NCBI GenBank assembly: GCA_012034595.1
Contig: JAAUPE010000033.1
Location: 1 to 56,214 of the forward strand
Length of the DNA stretch: 56,214 bases
From: Calothrix sp. CSU_2_0
Lineage (GTDB): Bacteria; Cyanobacteriota; Cyanobacteriia; Cyanobacteriales; Nostocaceae
Direction: 5' to 3'
Under the pieces are notes generated by a model. It did no database searches, was not told the origin of the DNA, and worked only from the letters and a program-made list of their open reading frames with translations. A program made the position numbers and the translations under genes. How positions within the stretch are numbered: the stretch's first letter is position 1; every line of letters begins with the position of its first letter. Below are positions 17,790 to 25,013 of the stretch, piece by piece.

Positions 17790-18197
17790 ATGACTAAGAA
17801 TTTAAAAGATTTTTTTGAAGCTTGCGAAAGCTTAAAAACACTACGCATCATCGTAACGAGTAGCGCTGCGGTGTTAGAAGCAAGGGGAAAAATCGAAAAG
17901 TTATTTTATGCTGAGTTACCGAAAGGTAAGTATGCGAATCTGCACACTGAAGGATTTGAATTTCACTTTAATATGGACAAAATTACACAAGTGAAATTTG
18001 AGACAGGTGAGGCAAAACGAGGAAATTTTAAAACTTATGCAATCCGTTTTTTAGATGAGAAGCCAGAGGTAGCTTTGAGCTTGTTTTTACAATGGGGCAA
18101 ACCTGGGGAATATGAACCCGGACAAGTCGAAGCATGGGAAGCATTACGTGCAGAATATGGAGAAGTTTGGGAACCCGTTCCTTTGGTGACTCTTTAG
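17790..18197 (+). CDS. Hypothetical protein, possibly HemS/HutX-like haem-handling fold
   Basis: This 135-aa soluble protein has the segment order of a half-HemS or HutX/ChuX domain. A GFEFHFNMDKITQVKF strand pair (residues about 54-69) is followed by AIRFLDEKPEVALSLFL (residues 84-100) and a C-terminal helix ending in WEALRAEYGE. Such domains bind or carry haem in the cytosol. The resemblance is only a pattern seen by eye. Its nearest neighbours, convergent on the other strand, are a V4R-like gene and a protoglobin gene, which gives some contextual support for haem handling. Confidence 0.35.
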   Translation: MTKNLKDFFEACESLKTLRIIVTSSAAVLEARGKIEKLFYAELPKGKYANLHTEGFEFHFNMDKITQVKFETGEAKRGNFKTYAIRFLDEKPEVALSLFLQWGKPGEYEPGQVEAWEALRAEYGEVWEPVPLVTL

Positions 18198-18230
18198 ATT
18201 AGAGAGTGGGAAATGGGAATTTTCAATTAA

Positions 18231-18257
18231 TTACCCATTACCCATTACCCATTACCT
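18231..18257. repeat. CCCATTA tandem heptamers
   Basis: About four copies of (A)CCCATT(A) lie between two convergent genes. A GGGCGAACGACCGTTCTCCCC dispersed repeat follows near 18310. Confidence 0.8.
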
Positions 18258-18377
18258 AATTTTGATTAATCATTAATCATCAGACATCTCTGAAAATAAA
18301 ATAAAATAAGGGCGAACGACCGTTCTCCCCTACTAAGGTTTTTGGGTAAAATATAATTCATTTGCGGAGAATATCTA

Positions 18378-18860
18378 CTAACCCTTCCCAAACTCATTAA
18401 ATTCAAACACGTCATGGCTGCCACCACGCAGTACAGACTCGGTATGTTTACCTTGGAAGCGTTTGCCCAATGTTTGCTCTAGAGTTCCCCACACAGCACC
18501 AAGGGTAAAGGTGCATTTGCGTTCCGAACCTTGAGGTTCACCTGCCGAACATAAAGTTTCGCTGGTGTAAACTTTGATGACATTACCTTCATCGACTATT
18601 TTCTCAACAGTACATAGACAAGTTCCATCCTTTCCCAAAGCATGGCAGAGTTTTGATGCCAAATCATCAAGAGATATTGAGGAATTGACTAAACCCAGTT
18701 GTTGTGCAAGCTGTTTTCCCCGACTTCTACCTGCCGTAGTCAGCGCGATCGCAGTTGCTTTGTCACCCAATGCATCTTCCATTCCTGCGATCGCAGCTTT
18801 AAAACAAATGATGCTACTAAAATCTCCCAAAATCGGACGTAACATTAGCTCTAACCCCAA
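18378..18860 (-). CDS. V4R/hydrocarbon-binding-like protein
   Basis: This 160-aa soluble protein has six cysteines (residues 19, 72, 81, 83, 104, 116). The N-terminal part, MLRPILGDFSSIICFKA, and a central ligand-pocket-like region fit the small cyanobacterial proteins annotated as hydrocarbon-binding/V4R domain. The C-terminal cysteines normally seen in metal-binding V4R domains are not in the usual positions (GGSHDVFEF instead of a G-x-C-F ending), so the assignment is tentative. It lies 43 bp downstream of the protoglobin gene on the same strand, probably in one transcript, and may be its ligand-binding or signalling partner. Confidence 0.5.
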   Translation of the reverse strand: MGLELMLRPILGDFSSIICFKAAIAGMEDALGDKATAIALTTAGRSRGKQLAQQLGLVNSSISLDDLASKLCHALGKDGTCLCTVEKIVDEGNVIKVYTSETLCSAGEPQGSERKCTFTLGAVWGTLEQTLGKRFQGKHTESVLRGGSHDVFEFNEFGKG

Positions 18861-18903
18861 TATTATCTAGTGATTTTTGTGATGTTAGATTCAGAACTAT
18901 CTG

Positions 18904-19458
18904 TTACATAGTTTTTGCACCAGTGGCAATTAAACGTCGGAATAACGCTTCAGACCATCCAGTTTCTTGCAGTACAGCAGCTGAGGATACTTCAATGTAG
19001 GCTTGTTCGATAAAAGCTAAATCAATCATGCAAATTCGTCCCAGGGCATCTTTAAGCTCTTCGCTCTTACCGTCATTTTTCAAACGCTTACCCACCTCAT
19101 GAACTACCGTAGCCATTGCGGGAACAACGTGCTGTGGTCCAATACCAATACGTACATGAACTAAACCAATTTTCCAACGACGATTTGCGTATGCATCACT
19201 CCAGTTGTCCATACCTGTGAACATTTCATGAAACCACTCAACAAAGGTTTCTCGTAAACGATGAGTGCGTTCATTTCCATCATTGAGAATTCGACTCATT
19301 TCCTCATCACGTCCAAGATAAGCATAGAAGTGGTCTGCCATATCTGGTGCAGCTTGTAAACCCCAATCAGCTTGCGATTTTAGCAAAGCTTTATCTTCAT
19401 CTGTAAAACCAGCACGCTTTATCAGGGTAGACAAAAATGTATGTGGTTCTAAAGCCAT
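18904..19458 (-). CDS. Protoglobin-domain haem protein
   Basis: This 184-aa single-domain globin is of the protoglobin/globin-coupled-sensor type. ADHFYAYLGRDEEMSRIL (residues 41-58) and FVEWFHEMF (residues 72-80) are typical. The proximal haem ligand is His101 in GLVHVRIGIG. Protoglobins bind O2, CO or NO. Free-standing ones lack an output domain, so a partner protein is expected. The flanking genes on the same strand are a V4R-like protein downstream and roadblock/LC7, GTPase and PATAN proteins upstream, which suggests a gas- or redox-sensing input to a GTPase switch. This link is inferred from order only. Confidence 0.85.
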   Translation of the reverse strand: MALEPHTFLSTLIKRAGFTDEDKALLKSQADWGLQAAPDMADHFYAYLGRDEEMSRILNDGNERTHRLRETFVEWFHEMFTGMDNWSDAYANRRWKIGLVHVRIGIGPQHVVPAMATVVHEVGKRLKNDGKSEELKDALGRICMIDLAFIEQAYIEVSSAAVLQETGWSEALFRRLIATGAKTM

Positions 19459-19553
19459 ACTAATTCCTAAATGTTAACGAAAGTAAGTTTTTGATGGTGA
19501 TGTTGGCAACTTTTAATCAACCAACATTCCGTAAATTCATCAATTTGCAACTA

Positions 19554-19680
19554 ATACCGATTCCAAAAATATTTGCAACACATACATGTCCAGAGACGGG
19601 ATATAGCCTTACAAAGCGAAGAACTATAAAGAAAGAGTCTCGACAAAAATCATCTGTCGCATTCTTTTTTTAATTGGTAT
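19554..19680. mobile_element. MITE-like element, copy A
   Basis: This 127-bp non-coding stretch begins ATACCGATTCC and ends AATTGGTAT, giving imperfect terminal inverted repeats flanked by TA/AT-rich sequence. It shares an ATCTGTCGCA motif near its right end and the same termini with the element at 30919-31067. It lies upstream of the protoglobin gene and could carry its promoter. Confidence 0.5.
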
Positions 19681-19826
19681 AATCTTGTACTCAGTTTATA
19701 ATTAATCGTGACGAATGACTTACTCAAATTCGAGATGGAATCAAGTGAAATATCAAATGCTAATTCACTGAAACTCTGCAATCCAAAAATCTGAGTAGGG
19801 ATTATTTGCGGCTATTTCAGTTTTGG

Positions 19827-20486
19827 CTACCCCAACAAAGGGGCTAGTTTTGCAACCGCTCGCTTAACTTCCAAAAACAAAATACCTTGTTTTACACCTG
19901 CACCAGCAAGTACGAGTAGTACTGCATCACTACCGCAACTAACGAGTACACCGTAACCCTTTTCACCTTCAACAACGATACGTTCTACTACCCCCCGTAC
20001 TAATTCACGTCCAATACGTTCCCCTAGCGAAAGCATTGATGCAGACATTGCAGCAGTTCGTTCTTCGTCCATTCCCCCAGGAAGTACGGATGCTAGAGCC
20101 AAACCATCGGGAGTCACCAAAGCAGCACCTTGTACATCAGAAGCTCCAGTCACGAAGCTTTGTAGTTCTTCTTGCAGCATCGAAATGTTAATCATCTTTT
20201 TTCCTTGTGAAATTATTGGTAAGGGTTTGTCTACAGAAGATGTGGTTGTCGATAATGTTGAAGGAGAAGAAGAATTCTCAGTTGTGATATTCGGTAGAAG
20301 TGGTCTATCGGCGATCGCGAATGTCGTATTATCTGACTCTATTGGTATTAATGAGGTTGATTCTACGGCTATTGGTTCTTCGACTATTGATTCTTCAACT
20401 TCTGACAACTCCGGTATATTTGCTGACTCGGAAGTTTTTTTTTGAAATCCTCCCGTAATTAGCTTGATAATTTTGCCCAGAGGCAT
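19827..20486 (-). CDS. Roadblock/LC7 domain protein
   Basis: The 219-aa protein has a low-complexity, Ser/Thr/Glu-rich N-terminal region (residues 1-95) and a C-terminal roadblock/LC7 domain. The domain starts INISMLQEELQSFVTGASDV and includes GAALVTPDGLALASVLPGG and GYGVLVSCGSDAVLLVLAG. Roadblock proteins (MglB type) act as GTPase-activating or scaffold partners of small Ras-like GTPases, and such a GTPase is encoded 200 bp upstream on the same strand. The GTPase pairing is therefore likely. The disordered N-terminal extension is absent from compact MglB proteins and may be a docking segment. Confidence 0.85.
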   Translation of the reverse strand: MPLGKIIKLITGGFQKKTSESANIPELSEVEESIVEEPIAVESTSLIPIESDNTTFAIADRPLLPNITTENSSSPSTLSTTTSSVDKPLPIISQGKKMINISMLQEELQSFVTGASDVQGAALVTPDGLALASVLPGGMDEERTAAMSASMLSLGERIGRELVRGVVERIVVEGEKGYGVLVSCGSDAVLLVLAGAGVKQGILFLEVKRAVAKLAPLLG

Positions 20487-20686
20487 GGCTACCTGATTAC
20501 CTATTAATTTTAGGTGTTTTTCATTACTCTCATTTTGACAGTTTTTTTTGATGGCTAGATAAAACTTAAGCTGAATAAGGTAAAGATTGGAATAAGAAAG
20601 AATTATTTTTGTGTTATGTGTAACATTTTGCTGATTGGGAATAACAAATTGTTCTTATTTTTTAGAATCTACTTTTTTCCTCTCTA

Positions 20687-21220
20687 CTATGTGATTGGGG
20701 TAAATTGTTCAACAAGGGTAATTAATCCTTCTCGAACCGATTCTGGTTGAGTTGGGTTAATGTTAATTATTAGGGGATGAGTTTCTTGGTTATCTAAACC
20801 CAATCCAAGTGCGATATCTTCTACTTCCCATGCATCTGGGTAATCGGTGTGTGTTAAACCGATTAAGTAGGGAATGGTGACTCTTTGATTGAGAAAATAG
20901 AGCATTTTACGACTTTGACGTAGTTGTTCGGGACGATGTGCGTTGACAAGTAAGATGTAAGCATTGGCTTTTTGGATGAGAATATCCCACATAAAGTCAA
21001 ATCTGGGTTGTCCAGGTGTTCCATATAGGTGTAATGATTGATTTTTGCCAATTGTTAACCTGCCAAAATCTAGCGCGACTGTTGTGCTGCTTTTGATATC
21101 TGCTACTTCGTCGGTTGCACGTTTATCTGTGTCAACAACTTCGATTTCGCTAATTGTGCGAATTAAGCTGGTTTTACCTGCACCAATAGTTCCCGTGATA
21201 ATAATTCGTAGGATTTCCAT
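20687..21220 (-). CDS. Small Ras-like GTPase (MglA/Rab-like ATP/GTP-binding protein)
   Basis: The 177-aa protein has a P-loop GTIGAGKTS (residues 10-18), a switch-II-like G3 motif YGTPGQ (residues 64-69) and a G4-like LTHTDYPDA that deviates from NKxD/TKxD. It fits the prokaryotic small GTPases that pair with roadblock proteins to control polarity, motility or development. Its ATG overlaps the stop of the upstream PATAN gene by one base (TAATG), so the two are translationally coupled. The roadblock gene follows after 200 bp. The deviant G4 motif leaves nucleotide specificity open. Confidence 0.85.
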   Translation of the reverse strand: MEILRIIITGTIGAGKTSLIRTISEIEVVDTDKRATDEVADIKSSTTVALDFGRLTIGKNQSLHLYGTPGQPRFDFMWDILIQKANAYILLVNAHRPEQLRQSRKMLYFLNQRVTIPYLIGLTHTDYPDAWEVEDIALGLGLDNQETHPLIININPTQPESVREGLITLVEQFTPIT

Positions 21221-22080
21221 TAGGTTTTACTCCTCAAAAATCCAACCAAATTTTGTAAAAATGCATTGCTGATTTTCAGCGATCGCGATTGTTGAGTTTT
21301 TCTGGCTGTTAAACTGGCATTGATGGAATAGTCGTTGAGCAGTGATGATGGTGGGATGAATGGAACTTCTTCGACTAAACAAGCCAGCATTAAGCGAAAT
21401 GCGACTTGTTGAATTATGGCTACTGGTTGGTTGAGTTGAGATGCGATCGCATTTAATGTTGCGCTACCATTGGCAAATTCCCACACTTGCCATTCCAGAG
21501 GATGTAAATGCACCTGCGGTTGCCCTTGAGTGATGCTTTCGATGGCAGAATTCTTATCTGGTAAAGCATCTGCCAATGCTGCCCAATTTTTTAATACCCG
21601 CAATGTCATCAAAGTAACTTCTATTGCTCGCAAACTCAACCCCGTCATCTCGTTTGCTGGTAATTCGGCTTTGCTATCAAGTTTGAATACACCCTTTTGG
21701 ATTTCAAATAACTGTCGTACTTGCTGCAATTGGCTGGCAAACAGCAAATTTAATTGCTCTGCACTCAATATCCCTTGGGTTTTCAAATGCAAACCAAGCG
21801 GTATGTCCACCCTTGCTGACTCACATAGACTTTTAATTGTTTGCTCTTTTACTAAACCTCGTTGGTAAATTTTTTCCAGCAATCCTTGATTGTTTAATTT
21901 ATTTGCAGTCGCGACTACACATCCTTGCCGAAACCAAATATAGTAATACTGCGACTTCGATCCGAGAATTTTGATATTTGGCAATGTACAAACAGTCAAA
22001 CATCCCGATTTTCTACCGCGATCGATCAACTGAAATAATTCAGCTAAGGAAAAATCTGTAAAAGAACTAGATAATGTCAT
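21220..22080 (-). CDS. PATAN/DUF4388 domain protein
   Basis: The 286-aa protein has an N-terminal PATAN (DUF4388) domain: SSSFTDFSLAELFQLIDRG, the typical SGCLTV strand, then YYIWFRQGCVVAT (residues about 5-55). A helical middle region and a winged-helix-like C-terminal part (LEWQVWEFANGSATLNAIA, near 195-213) follow. PATAN domains occur in PatA-type response regulators and Myxococcus/cyanobacterial signalling proteins, where they mediate protein interactions. It is the first gene of the cluster and is coupled to the GTPase gene by a one-base overlap, so it probably regulates or localises the GTPase. Confidence 0.8.
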   Translation of the reverse strand: MTLSSSFTDFSLAELFQLIDRGRKSGCLTVCTLPNIKILGSKSQYYYIWFRQGCVVATANKLNNQGLLEKIYQRGLVKEQTIKSLCESARVDIPLGLHLKTQGILSAEQLNLLFASQLQQVRQLFEIQKGVFKLDSKAELPANEMTGLSLRAIEVTLMTLRVLKNWAALADALPDKNSAIESITQGQPQVHLHPLEWQVWEFANGSATLNAIASQLNQPVAIIQQVAFRLMLACLVEEVPFIPPSSLLNDYSINASLTARKTQQSRSLKISNAFLQNLVGFLRSKT

Positions 22081-23855: not shown

Positions 23856-24113
23856 CTAACGCTTTTTTAAAGTTGGGATAATCTTTGGATTGAGCGACAT
23901 CACAGATAAAACTTGATAACCTTCACCTTGACTTACGCAAGCACCATTAAAATCGAGCGGACAATTAACCTGACTAGAAGATGGACGAGTACCCGCAAAA
24001 TAGATAGCTGTTATCTTTACTTGTTGATTGTGCAAAGCTTGTAGTTGAGTATAAGAAACCTGTTCGGATGGACGTAGGACTAAGCGATTTTCATCAAGAT
24101 TTTGGAGGTATAT
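23856..24113 (-). pseudogene. Unrecognised 3' gene remnant
   Basis: An open frame of about 85 codons on the minus strand, without an ATG or GTG start, reads as a plausible protein C-terminus (YTQLQALHNQQVKITAIYF and NCPLDFNGACVSQGEGYQ) and ends in a normal stop at 23856. It overlaps the end of the restriction enzyme gene in another frame. It is probably the tail of a gene truncated by a deletion that also altered the last residues of the nuclease. Family not recognised. Confidence 0.4.
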
Positions 24114-24648
24114 CTATATTTGAAACCCCACGTTGTTCCAAATCCCAAATAAATTGCTCAAAGAATGAAACACCAGATGACATAGCATTTACAAGCTGTT
24201 TCACTGGCACAATTTCTACTCCTGCGTCAATATGTCCTAAATTCTTGAAAATAGTCATTTTGGCACAGACGTTGTACACCATAAACGAATACTTACCAAA
24301 CTGAACCTCAACACCAAGCTTTTCTTTGACAAAATCCATATCTCGGAAAGAACCATCCATTTTTACACTTGTTTGATACCCAGGTGTATAGAATTGTGTT
24401 GGATAATCGCAACGAACACGTCTATTTACCCAACCACGTGTCCCAAATCCAGTTTTGAACGCTTTATTAAGGGATGGTGGACTGTACAACATCTGGTAAC
24501 TACGTCTAGCTTCCTTACTTTCTTTAGTTTTGTGTTGTCTTGCATCAACATTACCAATTACTTCGTATATCTCAGATAATAAATGGGGATAGTACTGCTG
24601 TATGTACTCCTTACCTCCATTAAAAGAGTATTCACCAGCGATAATCAT
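24094..24648 (-). CDS. Type II restriction endonuclease, BglII/BstYI family
   Basis: From the ATG at 24648 the protein has 184 aa. MIIAGEYSFNGGKEYI at the start, VDARQHKTKESKEARR (residues 34-49) and YSPPSLNKAF (residues 55-64) match what I recall of BstYI/BglII-like enzymes. The catalytic D...ExQ core is visible as DFVKEKLGVEVQFGKYSF (Asp105, Glu114, Gln116). MSSGVSFFEQ follows, as expected. The family cuts AGATCT or RGATCY, and the exact site here is not decidable. The final residues after NIDIP look altered, as if the last strand was lost. The start lies 2 nt after the stop of the preceding small gene. No intact methyltransferase gene is adjacent. Confidence 0.75.
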   Translation of the reverse strand: MIIAGEYSFNGGKEYIQQYYPHLLSEIYEVIGNVDARQHKTKESKEARRSYQMLYSPPSLNKAFKTGFGTRGWVNRRVRCDYPTQFYTPGYQTSVKMDGSFRDMDFVKEKLGVEVQFGKYSFMVYNVCAKMTIFKNLGHIDAGVEIVPVKQLVNAMSSGVSFFEQFIWDLEQRGVSNIDIPPKS

Positions 24649-24650
24649 GA

Positions 24651-25013
24651 CTAAGTATTTCCCTCGAATAAATCTTGATTCTTCCACTCTTCTGGTAATT
24701 GTGCCACACGTTCACGTCCTGTTGGTTTGTGAACTTCTTTACCCATAGCACGTAGTTTTAATTCACCACGATGTAAATGCGAAAACTCATGCAAAACAGC
24801 AACATAACTACCTCGATGCTGTTGTAACCAGTCAGCTTCCAATTTATAACCCATATCGCGAAGCGCGATGTCTTGCGACAAGCCCCTTCGGGTCTACGCA
24901 ACACAGCTATAATTAAACAGATTACAGCGACGACTTGTTTTTACCTCTGCTAAGGCTTGAATCAGTAGTGGTGGTTGGGGATTATGCATACTGATACTTA
25001 TACTTTCATTCAT
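24651..25013 (-). pseudogene. Small gene interrupted by a repeat, coupled to the restriction enzyme
   Basis: A frame starts with ATG at 25013 (MNESISISMHNPQPPLLIQA) and runs about 39 codons to a TAG. It then resumes in the same frame and ends at 24651 with a tail containing LHEFSHLHRGELKLRAMGK and VAQLPEEWKNQDLFEG. The TAG lies in a dispersed repeat (about 24849-24894) that seems to have been inserted. The stop is 2 nt from the nuclease ATG, indicating an operon. The tail could be the end of the partner DNA methyltransferase with its middle deleted, but this is a guess from position. Alternatively it is a small control protein. Confidence 0.4.
24849..24894. repeat. Dispersed palindromic repeat inserted in a coding frame
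   Basis: The stretch TCGCGAAGCGCGATG to GGGTCTACGC resembles the GCGTAGAC/GCGAAGCGC repeat units scattered in Nostocales genomes. On the minus strand it adds an in-frame TAG to the small gene upstream of the restriction enzyme. Confidence 0.55.

Follow-up and report, generated by a model that had tools for sequence, protein, structure and literature searches.

A sensor-associated MglA-type GTPase cassette in Calothrix sp. CSU_2_0 and other cyanobacteria: a possible gas- or redox-responsive switch

Described systems closest to the Calothrix locus

A 56,214-nucleotide stretch of DNA from Calothrix sp. CSU_2_0 (contig JAAUPE010000033.1; hereafter the window) carries five minus-strand genes for a PATAN protein, a small GTPase, a roadblock/LC7 protein, a free protoglobin and a V4R-like protein, and a ChuX/HutX-like gene faces them (Table 1). 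An earlier note on this DNA had described the cluster as a possible gas-responsive GTPase switch. All six genes are present, and the five-gene cluster is confirmed.

The closest published relatives of the GTPase are MglA groups 2-5, which are defined by a GTPGQ G3 motif (Wuichet and Sogaard-Andersen 2014, PMC4316618). The Calothrix cassette resembles them in this motif, in a Thr that replaces the Arg of group 1, in its coupling to a roadblock gene and in its PATAN neighbor. Passages of the same survey, citing Makarova 2006, report PATAN genes in the vicinity of MglA from groups 1 and 5, as well as MglB genes near PATAN. Globins go unmentioned in its main text, and its passages on these groups describe no V4R or hemerythrin partners.

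The actinobacterial conservon (CvnA-D) likewise unites a roadblock protein, a group 2 GTPase and a sensor in one locus. Its sensor is the membrane histidine kinase CvnA, according to passages of PMC4316618, whereas in the cyanobacterial cassette free proteins of haem, V4R or diiron type are the candidate inputs. The roadblock profile matches the conservon protein CvnB5 (3leq) at E 3.7e-15. No kinase is encoded among the genes of 17790-22080, and histidine kinase genes occur near the cassettes of some relatives. DUF742, which we take to be the family of CvnC, has no match among the window proteins and a single weak one (E 0.1) among 31 PATAN relatives.

Three further systems share parts of the arrangement. 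HGbRL of Methylacidiphilum joins a globin domain to a roadblock/LC7 domain, although it is a single fused protein with a flavohaemoglobin-like globin, reportedly unique to its genus (PMC4476040), whereas the cassette has separate genes, a protoglobin, and a GTPase and PATAN protein besides. The Synechocystis PixD-PixE pair likewise puts a PATAN protein, one with a link to PilB1, under the control of a sensor. PixE, however, is a PATAN response regulator under a BLUF photoreceptor, as passages of PMC7690835 describe it, whereas the cassette PATAN protein lacks a REC domain match and has a GTPase gene next to its own. Finally, the TRAPP core (a longin dimer, TRAPPC3/Bet3 and Rab) also combines a V4R-superfamily fold, a roadblock/longin-type protein and a small GTPase, and V4R-superfamily subunits are described as flanking the longin dimer in the relevant passages of PMC10933270. 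TRAPP is a eukaryotic exchange factor, whereas the V4R protein of the cassette is nearest to ligand-binding V4R domains and an exchange role for it would be hypothetical.

Among the literature matches listed, which cover few subscription journals, no paper was found that joins a globin, V4R protein or hemerythrin to a GTPase, roadblock and PATAN module. The earlier note knew of no described system with this composition; the association of GTPase, roadblock and PATAN is already published, and the link of sensors to this module was found in no report. To our knowledge, and judging from passages of the MglA survey, it appears largely open which signals act on bacterial MglA groups 2-5 apart from the conservon. 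The gene neighborhood examined here names one candidate effector and three candidate inputs, each of which could in principle respond to gas, redox state or small ligands.

Conservation of the cluster across the class

In a class-wide sample of 290 genomes, 72 had a globin match, at 81 places, and all 80 places outside the window were retrieved. With fragments and weak rows dropped, counts of co-occurrence and of GTPase places use 78 of 81 globin, 88 of 90 V4R and 128 of 136 GTPase rows. Hemerythrin is represented by 46 rows with E values no higher than 4.7e-38, and the count of genome co-occurrence adds three weaker cassette rows. The class counts are not independent because many rows come from two genera (g49 and g99). 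A second set of eighty named loci shares organisms with the class set, and the two are not summed.

The earlier note had raised the possibility that the five genes are rarely neighbors in relatives. Within 5 kb of 79 globin open reading frames (ORFs), we found a roadblock gene in 69 cases, a GTPase gene in 66 and a PATAN gene in 60, together with V4R in 21 and bacteriohemerythrin in 18; in each case a copy shares the strand of the globin. The possibility raised in the note is thus not borne out: roadblock, GTPase and PATAN genes are the usual neighbors of the globin, and V4R is often, though not always, nearby. Ten globin ORFs have no roadblock gene within this distance: five are second copies (L139, L144, L146, L165 and L178), one is a fragment (L156) and one lies at a contig end (L189), the others being L167, L171 and L172.

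Viewed from the GTPase, at least one gene for a globin, V4R protein or hemerythrin lies within 6 kb at 108 of 128 places, which represent 42 of 45 genera. The combinations are globin only (29), V4R only (33), globin with V4R (20), globin with hemerythrin (18), hemerythrin only (8) and none of the three (20). In a set of 20 GTPase places with neither globin nor V4R, 8 have hemerythrin. By comparison, a rough chance expectation for proximity to the cassette is 0.2% per gene copy. The same association is visible at the level of genomes, where a GTPase gene is also held by 68 of 70 with globin, 67 of 73 with V4R and 44 of 46 with hemerythrin, against 24, 25 and 16 expected if kinship is ignored. 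Even away from globin the V4R gene keeps this company: of 20 such places, 12 have roadblock, GTPase and PATAN genes, two more have roadblock only and six have none. In their own genome the five query proteins yield one match apiece at E <= 0.001, and other members of the class have the cluster again and again; the grouping of sensors with the GTPase cassette is therefore not due to chance.

The order of the genes is far less constant than their company. Among 95 same-strand runs of at least three core genes (L111-L230 and the window), some of them cut by contig ends, there are 33 arrangements that differ in order or content. The commonest are globin-roadblock-GTPase-PATAN (18 runs) and that order followed by hemerythrin (17). 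Proximity and strand are conserved while arrangement varies widely. The eighty named loci, which come from Nostocales, Nodosilinea, Leptolyngbya, Symploca, Coleofasciculus and others, mostly give a similar picture, and a few have the globin alone (e.g., L054 and L081).

Which core gene each sensor adjoins is also patterned. For sensor genes with any core neighbor within 1.5 kb, at loci mostly chosen for globin or V4R, globin adjoins roadblock in 52 of 70 cases (23 of 30 genera), V4R adjoins roadblock in 35 of 42 (16 of 19 genera) and hemerythrin adjoins PATAN in 23 of 28 (7 of 8 genera). Nine loci have a second roadblock gene, and at six of these there is more than one sensor. None of the 128 cassettes contains both V4R and hemerythrin (Fisher P 1.5e-7, a value inflated by relatedness). 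Of the 25 genomes with both families, 10 have only V4R in a cassette, 7 have only hemerythrin there, 3 have each in a cassette of its own and 5 have neither in one.

One locus deserves separate mention because its globin structure has been solved (8h17). At L121 in Thermosynechococcus, the globin is 100% identical to the Tlr1989 chain over 184 residues, and the order on one strand is globin-roadblock-GTPase-PATAN-hemerythrin. Because tlr1993 appears as a hemerythrin in the list of cyanobacterial O2-binding hemerythrins in PMC4919030, this cluster is probably tlr1989-tlr1993, provided that the numbering is consecutive. No paper naming tlr1989, nor one behind 8h17, was found in the same literature. 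Thermosynechococcus is a transformable, motile laboratory thermophile that forms no heterocysts. Since it has the cassette, heterocyst patterning, which the earlier note had listed among the mutant phenotypes to examine, is unlikely to be the general role.

Candidate sensors, their core and a proposed switch

The window globin scores 77.9 bits for PF11563 against a curated cut-off of 25. His101, which we presume from family conservation to be the proximal F8 His, and Tyr45 are both kept in every one of the 142 aligned homologues. The globin is 68% identical to Tlr1989, and its profile matches the Tlr1989 structure (8h17_A) at E 3e-99, ahead of the globin-coupled sensors 2w31, 5ohe and HemAT (1or4). 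Its family and conserved His make it a putative haem- and gas-binding protein. A protoglobin only 28% identical to it occurs in a similar cassette (L154:9002-9502) and may be a diverged orthologue or a replacement; His101 is still invariant in an alignment that includes it. Elsewhere, a globin remnant of 52 matched residues with a stop (L155, G256:C17:3106343-3106498) adjoins an intact V4R-roadblock-GTPase-PATAN run, as though the globin had been lost and the V4R cassette kept.

The V4R assignment of the earlier note stands on structure rather than on sequence. Pfam gives no match in the window protein, where the PF02830 gathering score is not reached, and PF02830 is only weakly matched in 7 of 35 members (best 18.8 bits, with 31 needed). 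The predicted structure of the window protein nevertheless has a V4R/TRAPPC3 fold, which confirms it as a V4R protein at the level of a model, and its nearest folds are phenol-sensor V4R domains, not TRAPPC3. As regards a candidate Cys-based metal site, Cys99 is invariant and Cys14 nearly so in an alignment of the 35 members. The third candidate sensor, bacteriohemerythrin, is found in relatives, and PF01814 is above its cut-off in the two proteins scanned. In all 36 cassette ORFs (e.g., L095:11163-11594 and L121:11444-11854) Cys73 is invariant and Asn79 replaces a His that we assume to be an iron ligand.

By motif, the GTPase belongs to MglA groups 2-5. PF03029 is matched in 29 of 29 aligned members, the G3 residues G67-T68-P69-G70-Q71 are invariant in all 29, and so are T46 and T47, a pair in which a Thr next to that of G2 stands where group 1 has Arg. 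In keeping with groups 2-5, the protein is shorter than 240 amino acids (aa) and is coupled to a roadblock (MglB-type) gene. It has GTPGQ and Thr where group 1 has a TVPGQ G3 motif and an intrinsic Arg finger, and the parallel that the earlier note had drawn with polarity and motility GTPases loses force at this point. Membership in group 5 is probable because passages of PMC4316618 list members of that group in cyanobacteria.

The window roadblock protein has an N-terminal extension of ~97 residues before its domain (~98-219), whereas roadblock ORFs have a median length of 123 aa; its nearest solved chains are 7f8m, 9jue and CvnB5 (3leq). PF14332 (DUF4388) is matched in 31 of 31 aligned PATAN members. 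The AlphaFold2 model of the window PATAN protein has a predicted local distance difference test score (pLDDT) of 89.6, and the protein has a winged-helix-like C-terminal region (~168-242, by fold comparison), a disordered stretch (251-267) and a terminal helix (272-285).

Globin, V4R and hemerythrin genes beside a Ras-like switch suggest an undescribed route by which a gas or redox signal could reach a GTPase. The coupling of gas or ligand sensors to the GTPase that the earlier note had proposed is likely because the neighbors are conserved, V4R and hemerythrin attach to the same cassette and a globin-roadblock fusion is published (PMC4476040). We find it reasonably probable that the cassette is a sensor-gated small-GTPase switch that acts through the PATAN protein, possibly on type IV pili. 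Its core would be the MglA-type GTPase, with a roadblock dimer that controls the nucleotide state or serves as a scaffold and PATAN as the effector. The haem globin and V4R protein may dock on the roadblock protein, as the gene adjacency, the extra sensors at two-roadblock loci and the globin-roadblock fusion of Methylacidiphilum suggest. Bacteriohemerythrin would be an alternative input in other lineages, mostly encoded beside PATAN. The ligand state of a sensor would alter the interaction of roadblock and GTPase, and the active GTPase would change the binding partners of PATAN, most plausibly parts of the type IV pilus motor. PATAN response regulators have been linked to type IV pili, and PixE is reported to interact with PilB1 in passages of PMC7690835. 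Pilus activity or motility would thus track O2, nitric oxide (NO) or redox state, and gas or redox sensing would be tied to a Ras-like switch in organisms that produce oxygen. The cassette would also be a bacterial instance of the combination of V4R, roadblock and GTPase familiar from TRAPP.

Several observations weigh against a sensor-gated switch. Gaps of up to 368 bp between the cluster genes make a single transcript uncertain; promoter-like sites are at the level of shuffled sequence (15 versus 15.7), and terminator-like sites slightly exceed it (7 versus 3.9, standard deviation 2.1). Eight intact globin ORFs, including five second copies, lack a roadblock gene in the 5 kb around them, and 20 of 128 GTPase places have no recognized sensor. 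With contig ends contributing, no GTPase gene lies within 6 kb at 32 of 88 V4R places and 20 of 46 hemerythrin places. Asn79, as the substitute for an expected iron ligand, makes O2 binding by the cassette hemerythrin uncertain. An exclusion of V4R and hemerythrin at the level of genera was considered and withdrawn, as four genera have both, in different cassettes. The interaction, ligand and phenotype of the switch are predictions.

A more ambitious version, which we advance only tentatively and hold to be doubtful, is a modular, exchangeable-sensor system in which a single roadblock-GTPase-PATAN core is shared by, or contested between, haem globin, diiron hemerythrin and V4R protein, and in which V4R and roadblock together act as a ligand-gated bacterial counterpart of the TRAPP exchange factor. 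If true, a Ras-like switch would be read out directly by gas sensors, and we found no description of a system of this kind.

Alternatively, the three candidate sensors could be outputs or housekeeping proteins that detoxify or store NO or O2 and are co-regulated, and hence co-located, with a GTPase-PATAN motility module to which they have no functional tie. NO detoxification and O2 binding are common functions of globins and hemerythrins, copies of all three families exist away from the GTPase, and hemerythrin mostly adjoins PATAN instead of roadblock. This explanation is nonetheless unlikely, given that three unrelated families join one GTPase cassette, with V4R and hemerythrin together at none of 128 places, that globin and V4R adjoin mainly the roadblock gene, and that no reductase was recognized by eye among 18 recurring neighbor families inspected.

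Quite unlikely, in our estimation, is a TRAPP-like complex in which the V4R protein, with its Bet3/TRAPPC3 fold, flanks the roadblock dimer as a ligand-gated exchange factor and the globin is a second regulatory subunit. A common fold proves no function, and exchange activity is hypothetical; the closest folds are those of phenol sensors, and no V4R gene lies within 6 kb at 75 of 128 GTPase places. We would give just as little credence to the PATAN protein being a transcription factor, with its winged-helix C-terminus binding DNA and the cassette serving as a gas-responsive gene regulator instead of a motility control.

The window locus and neighboring genes

Table 1. Genes of the cluster in the window, with the facing gene
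Feature	Positions	Strand	Length (aa)	Pfam match	Remarks
PATAN (DUF4388) protein	21220-22080	-	286	PF14332, E 2.4e-22	probable effector
Small GTPase, MglA-type	20687-21220	-	177	PF03029, E 4.3e-11	GTPGQ G3 motif
Roadblock/LC7 protein	19827-20486	-	219	PF03259, E 1.3e-16	
Protoglobin-family globin, single domain	18904-19458	-	184	PF11563, E 1.1e-21	orthologue of Tlr1989 (PDB 8h17)
V4R-fold protein	18378-18845	-	155		predicted fold; invariant Cys99, nearly invariant Cys14
ChuX/HutX-like protein	17790-18197	+	135	PF06228, E 1.2e-9, 38.6 bits (cut-off 25)	convergent

The PATAN stop and the GTPase ATG overlap by one base (TAATG), as the earlier note had it. The remaining gaps are 200 bp between GTPase and roadblock, 368 bp between roadblock and globin and 58 bp between globin and V4R. 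The likely start of the V4R gene is the ATG at 18845, versus a TTG at 18860 in the ORF list. NtcA-like GTAN8TAC sites occur in the roadblock-globin gap (19677) and upstream of PATAN (22379); relatives have no clear enrichment of such sites over shuffled sequence.

The earlier note had described the facing ChuX/HutX-like protein as possibly haem-handling. Its family is present at 21 of 141 compared loci and is thus not a constant neighbor, and its membership in the system is doubtful. The gene converges on the cassette in many Nostocales loci (L034, L036, L039, L040 and others), where PhoH-like (by eye), KH and S16 genes come next.

Other genes accompany the cassette in particular lineages. Genus g30 has a cassette in which no known sensor occurs; there, PATAN is followed by an unassigned protein (L218:8659-9132, 157 aa; L222:2063-2632, 189 aa) with a weak NitrOD5 match (E 0.015), which is a possible fourth sensor. 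A family of large proteins is encoded beside cassettes on the same strand, with 11 ORFs in 10 loci (L062, L073, L091, L092, L099, L102, L107, L108, L110 and L162); the one scanned, in L102, has NB-ARC/TPR matches in Pfam. In the window itself, a BglII-type restriction endonuclease family protein (PF09195, E 5.2e-16) is encoded on the minus strand at 24094-24687, a few kb upstream of the cluster.

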